A DNA stretch of 64,000 bases, taken from contig NZ_REGA01000002.1 of the NCBI RefSeq assembly GCF_003841505.1, positions 124,001 through 188,000 on the forward strand, in the 5' to 3' direction. Below are positions 60,447 to 62,196 of this stretch, one piece after another. Origin of the DNA: Natrarchaeobius chitinivorans (lineage in GTDB: Archaea > Halobacteriota > Halobacteria > Halobacteriales > Natrialbaceae). Numbering within the stretch: the stretch's first letter is position 1; every line of letters begins with the position of its first letter. The notes beneath the pieces were generated by a model. It had not been told where the DNA came from, did no database searches, and saw only the letters and a list, made by a program, of their open reading frames with translations. The translations under genes were made by a program, and so were the position numbers.

Positions 60447-60948
60447 GAAGACGGGGAAACGCAGGAGACGTGTTCTCGCCCCCGGCACTCGAGTTTCCTT
60501 GGCCCACCGACGAACGACAGCCACGGGATTCCTGGGCCCGCCGACGAGCGCCAATCACGGGATGCAGGTCCGACCGTCGGCTTTCGATTCGGCCAGAACG
60601 GTCACACTCGAGCACGGTTTACGGGCCGCTCGTCGAAGTTGTTCGTCGTAGAAGTGCGCTGGCTGGGATTTGAACAGTGCCTGAGAACCTGCTCGCTCCG
60701 CTCGCAGAACCGCAGTCTGATTCAAATCCAGTGGATCTTCTCGACTCACGGATGACGAGCACACGCTACGCGGTGCTCGTCGAAGTTGTTCGTCGTAGAA
60801 GTGCGCTGGCTGGGATTTGAATAACGCGAAGACGGTCCTGCTCGCTCACTTCGTTCGCTCGCAGGCTGCGACTTCTCTCGTTCAAATCCGAGAACGATTT
60901 TCACTGGACAGACGACTCGCTTCGCTCGTCGTTGTTGTCCAGTGAAAA
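60447..60948. other. Intergenic region beside tRNA-Gly
   Basis: Holds the tRNA-end repeats (see 60628-60821) and several GC hairpins such as CTCGCTCCGCTCGCAG-like and GCTCACTTCGTTCGCTC. No integrase gene or other coding sequence is recognised. Confidence 0.45.
60628..60821. repeat. Duplicated copies of the tRNA-Gly 3' end
   Basis: A 47-bp exact direct repeat at 60628-60674 and 60775-60821 ends with TGCGCTGGCTGGGATTTGAA, which is the last 20 nt of the tRNA-Gly gene at 60949-61019. Each copy is followed on the same strand by TTCAAATCC-like sequence, so each is also half of a palindrome. These look like attachment-site scars left by elements that integrated at the tRNA. Confidence 0.65.
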
Positions 60949-61019
60949 TGCGCTGGCTGGGATTTGAACCCAGGTTGTGACCATGGCAAGGTCACGTGAT
61001 ACCACTACACTACCAGCGC
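60949..61019 (-). tRNA. tRNA-Gly (anticodon GCC)
   Basis: 71 nt. The acceptor stem is GCGCTGG/CCAGCGC with discriminator A. The anticodon stem GTGACC/GGTCAC encloses the loop TTGCCAT, anticodon GCC. The T-arm CTGGG-TTCAAAT-CCCAG is regular. CCA is not encoded. No intron is seen. Confidence 0.95.
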
Positions 61020-61335: not shown

Positions 61336-62196
61336 ATGACCGTCAGCGTACTCGTTCCGTCGTCACTGACCCGGGAAGCCGAGGACAAACGCGAGGCAAC
61401 TCGCAAACTCGGATACGTCGCCCGCGCGGCGACGATCTTTCGGGTCGACCGTCTGCTCGTCTACCCGGATCGGGAAGGCGAAACGGGGCGGTTCGACGGC
61501 GGGTTCGTACACACCGTCTTCCGGTACGCCGCAACGCCCCCCTACCTCAGAAATGAGGTGTGGGGCATGCGGGACGAACTGGAGTACGCGGGCATCCTGC
61601 CGCCGCTCCGCGCCGTGGCACAGACCGGCTCCGAATCGAACGGTTCGGGGTCGTCAAGACAAGGGATCGTGACCGAGGTCGGACCTGATCAACGCGTCCG
61701 GGTCAATTGCGGCTTGCAACACCCGATCACCCTCAACGTCCCTCCAGAAATGGAGGTCGTCGAGGGTGAGCGCGTGACCGTCAGGATCTCTTCGCGACGA
61801 CCGGTCCGGGCGAAGCTCGCAGACGAGCCCCTTCCGGGGCTCTCAGTCGAGTGGACGGACCTTTCGGCAGCACTCGGCCGTGAGGACGCCGGCGTCTGCA
61901 TCGCAGCCTCCCGATTCGGTGAGGAACTCACCGTCGGGAGACTCGAGACGCTGGCCGGACGCATCGAAGGCGACGGAACGACCGTGGCGTTCGGCGCGCC
62001 CGAGAGAGGGCTGCCGGACATCCTCGGAATCGAGGCGTCAGCAGTCGCCGACGACGGCGACAGCGACGGAGTCGAACCCACGGACGATTCGGGGTTCGAC
62101 CTCTGGCTGAACACGGTTCCGGATCAAGGGAGCGAGGTGGTTCGAACGGAGGAGGCTCTGTTCGCCACGCTCGCTCCCCTCTCACTGAGAGCGTGA
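61336..62196 (+). CDS. SPOUT-family RNA methyltransferase (DUF171-like)
   Basis: A 286-residue protein of the putative SPOUT methyltransferase family found just before L3 in many haloarchaea. Blocks are VSVLVPSSLTREAEDKREAT, KLGYVARAATIFRVDRLLVY, FRYAATPPYLRNEVW, and FGAPERGLPDILG (the knot loop region). An OB-like insert (VRVNCGLQHPITLNV) lies in the middle. It likely methylates rRNA. It is separated from L3 by 4 bp, so it should be translated with the ribosomal operon. Confidence 0.88.
   Translation: MTVSVLVPSSLTREAEDKREATRKLGYVARAATIFRVDRLLVYPDREGETGRFDGGFVHTVFRYAATPPYLRNEVWGMRDELEYAGILPPLRAVAQTGSESNGSGSSRQGIVTEVGPDQRVRVNCGLQHPITLNVPPEMEVVEGERVTVRISSRRPVRAKLADEPLPGLSVEWTDLSAALGREDAGVCIAASRFGEELTVGRLETLAGRIEGDGTTVAFGAPERGLPDILGIEASAVADDGDSDGVEPTDDSGFDLWLNTVPDQGSEVVRTEEALFATLAPLSLRA

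Follow-up and report, generated by a model that had tools for sequence, protein, structure and literature searches.

RtT has been reported as an RNA that is freed from the transcripts of tRNA operons in the course of tRNA processing and is tied to the stringent response (PMC4986893), and the number of the tyrT repeats varies in Salmonella (PMC2658671). For the archaeal tyrosine integrases, the attachment sites lie in the 3′ ends of tRNAs (PMC8371274). Within a 64,000-nucleotide window of Natrarchaeobius chitinivorans (contig NZ_REGA01000002.1, positions 124,001 to 188,000), we analyzed the region behind a tRNA-Gly(GCC) gene, in which the 3′ end of the tRNA is repeated. The window is haloarchaeal, with a match in 61/61 genomes searched. 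The repeats belong to a family of structured elements, about 100-170 nt in length (hereafter, units), that form tandem arrays immediately downstream of tRNA genes in most Halobacteria. The existence of this structured and tRNA-linked family can be taken as established, with very little room for doubt. In a literature search limited to CC-licensed papers, no description of such units was found for archaea.

Organization of the tRNA-Gly(GCC) locus

The features of the locus are listed in Table 1. Along the tRNA strand, each unit consists of hairpin I, a linker, an inverted T-loop (GGATTTGAA), an imperfect hairpin II core and a copy of the tRNA tail, and the linker can pair in part with the acceptor portion of the tail copy. 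The RNA folding of the tRNA strand gave -61 kcal/mol (z of -5.4) for unit 1 and -59.9 kcal/mol (z of -3.9) for unit 2.

Table 1. Features of the tRNA-Gly(GCC) locus (positions in the window)
Feature	Positions	Strand	Basis
tRNA-Gly(GCC)	60949-61019	minus	ARAGORN; Rfam RF00005
Tail of tRNA-Gly(GCC), T54 to nt 73, TTCAAATCCCAGCCAGCGCA	60949-60968	minus	ARAGORN, RF00005
Unit 1, 147 nt: hairpin I, linker, inverted T-loop, hairpin II core and tail copy	60802-60948	minus	sequence; fold
Hairpin I of unit 1, containing G.A pairs in tandem (CGAG/CGAG)	60898-60948	minus	fold
Inverted T-loop of unit 1, GGATTTGAA, pairing with the tail copy at 60813-60821	60881-60889	minus	sequence, fold
Hairpin II core of unit 1	60822-60880	minus	fold
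Tail copy 1, 20/20 identity to the tRNA tail	60802-60821	minus	sequence
Unit 2, 147 nt, architecture as unit 1 with other hairpin modules	60655-60801	minus	sequence; fold
Hairpin I of unit 2	60737-60801	minus	fold
Inverted T-loop of unit 2	60721-60729	minus	sequence, fold
Hairpin II core of unit 2	60675-60720	minus	fold
Tail copy 2, 20/20 identity to the tRNA tail	60655-60674	minus	sequence
Truncated third unit: initial 27 nt of hairpin I, identical to those of unit 2	60628-60654	minus	sequence

The original prediction, that the tail TGCGCTGGCTGGGATTTGAA recurs exactly at two places beside the gene, was confirmed at both positions, together with the start-to-start spacing of 147 between the copies, which is again 147 to the tail of the tRNA itself, and with the 47-bp exact repeat (60628-60674 and 60775-60821). 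For a 20-mer, two additional perfect copies inside 300 bp far exceed chance, and the copies are true duplicates of the tRNA 3′ end. Since the 47-bp repeat joins the tail copy to the opening 27 nt of a hairpin I, the last copy is followed by a truncated third unit. The sequence TTCAAATCC, which had been described as following each copy, is the inverted T-loop; it does so on the plus strand but precedes the copy on the tRNA strand. The two had also been taken to form palindromes, and each such pair was found to enclose an imperfect hairpin. As a separate observation, the model RF03135 (L4-Archaeoglobi r-protein leader) matched at 61685-61784 on the plus strand (76 bits, E of 1.4e-14), within the coding ORF 61336-62196 upstream of the L3/L4 genes and not in a leader.

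Distribution of the units among tRNA genes and genomes

A copy of the own tail was found within 450 nt downstream for 20 of the 42 tRNAs of the N. chitinivorans genome, as compared with 0 for the reversed tails in the same distance and 8 in 1614 trials for the tails of other tRNAs. The motif GATTTGAA-N38-68-TTCAAATC occurs at eight places in this genome (none for the reversed control), all directly behind tRNA genes, those for Thr, Gly(GCC) (twice), Asp, Lys, Val, Gly(TCC) and Phe. Using one genome per species, and with motif scans that are biased toward units with TTCRAATCC loops, we detected the strict motif GGATTTGAA-N36-66-TTCAAATCC in 225 of 292 haloarchaeal genomes, leaving 67 devoid of it, with 0 matches for the reversed pattern, while a looser Y/R version was present in 71/81 haloarchaea versus 6/312 other Halobacteriota genomes. 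Unit 1 was matched in 121 of the 125 genomes of Natrialbaceae. The unit pattern is nearly class-wide in Halobacteria. Since about half of the tRNAs stand without a unit and the strict motif is missing in 67/292 genomes, no tRNA needs a unit.

At all of the 30 class-wide motif loci listed, a tRNA was in reach when introns were allowed for, and the loci checked stood nearly always behind tRNA genes, for at least 13 amino-acid types. Matches to the modules away from tRNA-Gly also adjoin tRNAs in 18 of 20 cases. A dispersed repeat family was ruled out as a candidate, because the modules occur beside tRNAs.

Matching of the units to their own tRNA and sharing of hairpin modules

In a set of 71 loci, chosen solely by the T-loop motif and not by tail match, the 11 nt after the T-loop matched the tail of the upstream tRNA at 9.97/11 positions, versus 4.53/11 for other isotypes. 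Behind tRNAs with a different T-loop, the inverted piece differs likewise: TTCGAGTCC of the Asn tRNA is paired with inverted GGACTCGAG, and TTCGAACCC of the Val(TAC) tRNA with inverted GGGTTCGAA. Both the tail copies and the inverted T-loops are tRNA-specific.

The hairpins show another pattern. For 89 of 135 hairpin II sequences, the closest one in another genome stood behind a tRNA of other isotype, 45 of these at an identity of at least 85%. Behind tRNA-Gly within one genus, the same hairpin I was found with different hairpin II, and vice versa, and one unit is 94% identical between two genera at nearby flanking DNA of about 79%. At one locus of a relative (L022), hairpin I is followed by a tail, with the inverted T-loop and the core missing. 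The hairpin modules are common to different tRNA types and genera, while the tail follows the host tRNA.

Conservation of the fold on the tRNA strand

The stems covary. Among 113 distinct cores of hairpin II, 81.2% of the cells in the second stem are paired, whereas 500 permutations of the 3′ arms gave a mean of 50.3% and a maximum of 55.3%, and at one pair of this hairpin all four Watson-Crick types are present. The one-sided mismatches, summed over the pair tables, were G.U in 121 cases versus A.C in 40, and G.A in 165 versus C.T in 33. In agreement with this bias, the words of the tRNA strand are unequal within the units (CGAG 411 versus CTCG 93; GCGAGC 130 versus GCTCGC 5), and the minimum free energy of hairpin II is lower on the tRNA strand in 109 of 136 cases (p = 2e-14). 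The toleration of G.U and G.A on the tRNA strand, and not of A.C and C.T, indicates that a single strand folds, either as RNA or as single-stranded DNA (ssDNA). Hairpin II likewise favours the tRNA strand under DNA folding parameters, so that ssDNA stays a candidate beside RNA. These patterns mean that selection acts on one folded strand, be it RNA or ssDNA.

Integrase elements in the same genome and alternative explanations

In line with the original prediction, integrative elements do use tRNA tails in this genome. Two were identified, one of 16.4 kb at tRNA-Arg(TCT) (L372, G000:C11:110277-130276) and one of 13.1 kb at tRNA-Arg(TCG) (L373, G000:C2:290894-310893), each with a 13-bp att core (nt 61-73), no hairpins and an integrase-type gene (tyrosine integrase) beside attR. 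In Pfam, the integrase of the Arg(TCT) element matched Phage_integrase with an E of 8.5e-6, just below the curated cut-off, and Phage_int_SAM_1 above the cut-off; that of the Arg(TCG) element was identified from sequence similarity only. The 16.4-kb element lies between tRNA-Arg(TCT) and a full unit, a separation of the unit from its tRNA that is tolerated by the cell. A second element at the same site, whose left end shares 94% identity with that of the first, starts right after the tail copy of the unit; it carries a small zinc-ribbon-like ORF. The units thus coexist with integrase elements but leave a different footprint, copies of at least 20 nt with inverted T-loop and hairpins as against the 13-bp cores of nt 61-73.

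The two tail copies had been interpreted as nested scars or minimal remnants of integration, for which duplication of the tail is indeed a hallmark, and some tRNA tails of this genome do harbour elements. This explanation was not supported: the genuine integrase sites are 13-bp cores with the integrase gene by attR, and lack the T-loop, the inverted piece and the hairpins. The 147 bp taken for the size of a remnant is the full size of a unit, complete units forming a family that spans the class and whose conserved fold is specific to one strand, and no integrated element was found at tRNA-Gly(GCC) in the loci of relatives examined. Nor would random erosion produce one and the same arrangement of two hairpins for dozens of tRNAs across hundreds of genomes. 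The origin as scars or eroded remnants is already contradicted by the conserved fold and must be considered very improbable. We regard it as equally improbable that the host maintains the units as decoy att sites, diverting integrases from the essential tRNA gene. The left end of the second element at tRNA-Arg(TCT) does abut the tail copy of the unit and not the tRNA, but a later insertion of the unit, following that of the element, would give the same order. Moreover, the other element at this site used the tRNA itself, and neither the hairpins nor the inverted T-loop would be required in a decoy. Slightly less probable still are short transposable elements, MITE- or casposon-like, that duplicate a target of about 20 bp at tRNA ends: this would account for the match of each copy to its own tRNA, but terminal inverted repeats were not seen at the unit ends upon inspection by eye, and simple target duplication leaves the tRNA-specific inverted T-loop inside the unit unexplained.

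More serious, though still rather unlikely in our estimate, is the possibility that the units are function-free mobile mini-cassettes, which recombine as folded ssDNA in the manner of integron cassettes. The tRNA tail would then be the double-stranded target and the tail-copy hairpin its folded partner, with the integrase supplied in trans by the resident elements. The fixed orientation, the tandem array behind a fixed site, the imperfect hairpin with its one-strand mismatches and the modules common to several tRNA types all agree with such cassettes, as do the changes of hairpin I and hairpin II types behind one and the same tRNA among the members of a genus, and a unit of about 147 bp is awkward as a double-stranded circle. 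On the other hand, the units are without genes, no dedicated recombinase was identified for them, and the preference for G.U and G.A fits RNA equally well. Moreover, an incoming cassette would give the tRNA its tail, and so an extra step is needed for spread between tRNA types.

Proposed mechanism for expression and spread of the units

Combining these comparisons, we propose that the units are trailer RNAs resembling RttR, which have passed from one tRNA gene to another as small modules targeted to the tail, and assign to this reading a probability of about 50%. The array of units would be transcribed together with the tRNA as a trailer of the precursor and released by tRNA 3′ processing, just as the tyrT trailer of E. 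coli yields RttR RNA. The inverted T-loop pairs with the tail copy, and may in this way prevent the spare T-loop and tail from competing during the folding of the tRNA. The units could spread and be exchanged through insertion or recombination at the tail, the newest unit standing next to the tRNA, so that every unit would leave behind an intact tRNA plus a tail copy. About a third of units carry T-runs at their start, which could stop transcription at the tRNA and would then count against transcription as a trailer. The lack of units behind about half of the tRNAs and the tolerated separation of unit and tRNA at tRNA-Arg(TCT) also weigh against the proposal. The depletion of T-runs was also considered as a sign of unit transcription, and turned out to be uninformative.

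Unit-like sequences outside Halobacteria and on other replicons

The layout of tail, inverted T-loop, hairpin and tail was also found at tRNA-Ser in a contig of Woesearchaeota UBA10192 (L108) and at tRNA-Asp in a marine MAG labelled as bacterium (L167), the copy in the latter being identical at 20/20. Among viral contigs, the motif gave 97 matches, none with a tRNA in reach and none recognisably haloarchaeal, and phage records gave no unit match. Plasmid records yielded units on two haloarchaeal megaplasmids, one of them with tRNA-Gly and r-protein genes; the Natronorubrum bangense megaplasmid NZ_CP031306.1 (L413), filed as a plasmid, carries tRNA-Gly arrays beside the r-protein L3/L4 genes.

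Two other types of palindrome were noticed. A separate repeat of 54-55 bp, GGATTTGAAGTTCC...GGAACTTCAAATCC, is present in Alphaproteobacteria (Brucella, Mesorhizobium and relatives; L083, L104, L112, L137 and others) away from tRNAs. Near-perfect palindromes of 58-61 bp in Bifidobacterium (L138, L141) and in the viral contigs L225, L240, L250 and L253 are made of tRNA-like anticodon-arm and T-arm sequence, GGATTTGAACC..CCTCTGG..CCAGAGG..GGTTCAAATCC, and are possibly phage att sites.

In the widest sense, we tentatively suggest, with less than even confidence, that the units represent a previously unrecognised class-wide element, modular and structured RNA or ssDNA cassettes that target tRNA 3′ ends, adapt their end and anti-T-loop to the respective tRNA and build up arrays. 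The repeats of E. coli tyrT, and possibly those of Woesearchaeota and the marine MAG, would be independent counterparts, altogether one general mobile or regulatory type across domains. If the interpretation is right, roughly every second tRNA gene of a haloarchaeon would bear a structured, fast-evolving trailer array missed by annotation, with bearing on tRNA processing, on the small RNAs of model archaea and on tRNA ends as targets of mobile DNA, and the E. coli tyrT repeats, a puzzle of the 1970s, would no longer be a lone oddity. The presence, absence and module exchange of the units are traceable over hundreds of genomes.

Comparison with known systems

The archaeal tyrosine-integrase att sites share with the units the duplication of a tRNA 3′ end beside the gene, but the integrase elements found here differ from the units in their 13-bp cores, adjacent integrase gene and lack of hairpins. 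Integron arrays likewise consist of tandem units that follow a fixed site in the same orientation, and an imperfect hairpin, its mismatches specific to one strand, closes each of them; in the case of the units, however, the site is a tRNA tail, and no integron integrase, attC consensus or genes were identified, the resemblance being one of layout only.

Judging from sequence and layout, the tyrT/RttR operon of E. coli appears to be the closest known system to the haloarchaeal units. The E. coli tyrV gene is followed by three exact 19-nt copies of its tail at a spacing of 178 nt, each unit carrying an inverted piece of the tail, 10 nt in length (GGGGAAGGAT), and a hairpin ahead of the tail copy. 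All three units match the model RF00391 RtT (134-138 bits), and rttR, annotated as ncRNA, ends on the last base of the tail copy. Among five tRNA loci tested in K-12, only tyrV carries extra tail copies; glyVXY, leuQPV, argX-proM and proL showed repeats of the whole tRNA or nothing. On the haloarchaeal side, the RtT model gave no match at E<=1 in five loci and, at best, 16.2 bits in the N. chitinivorans genome against a gathering cut-off of 45, and Rfam matched only the tRNA and the r-protein leader in the haloarchaeal loci. The units therefore have the layout of RtT, yet are not members of RF00391. Common to both systems are the tandem units behind a tRNA, each ending in a copy of its tail, and the inverted tail piece and hairpin ahead of this copy. 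The haloarchaeal units differ from those of tyrT/RttR in standing behind about half of all tRNAs, in carrying a separate hairpin I and in having exchangeable modules, and they invert the T-loop, whereas the tyrT units of E. coli invert the acceptor-proximal tail.
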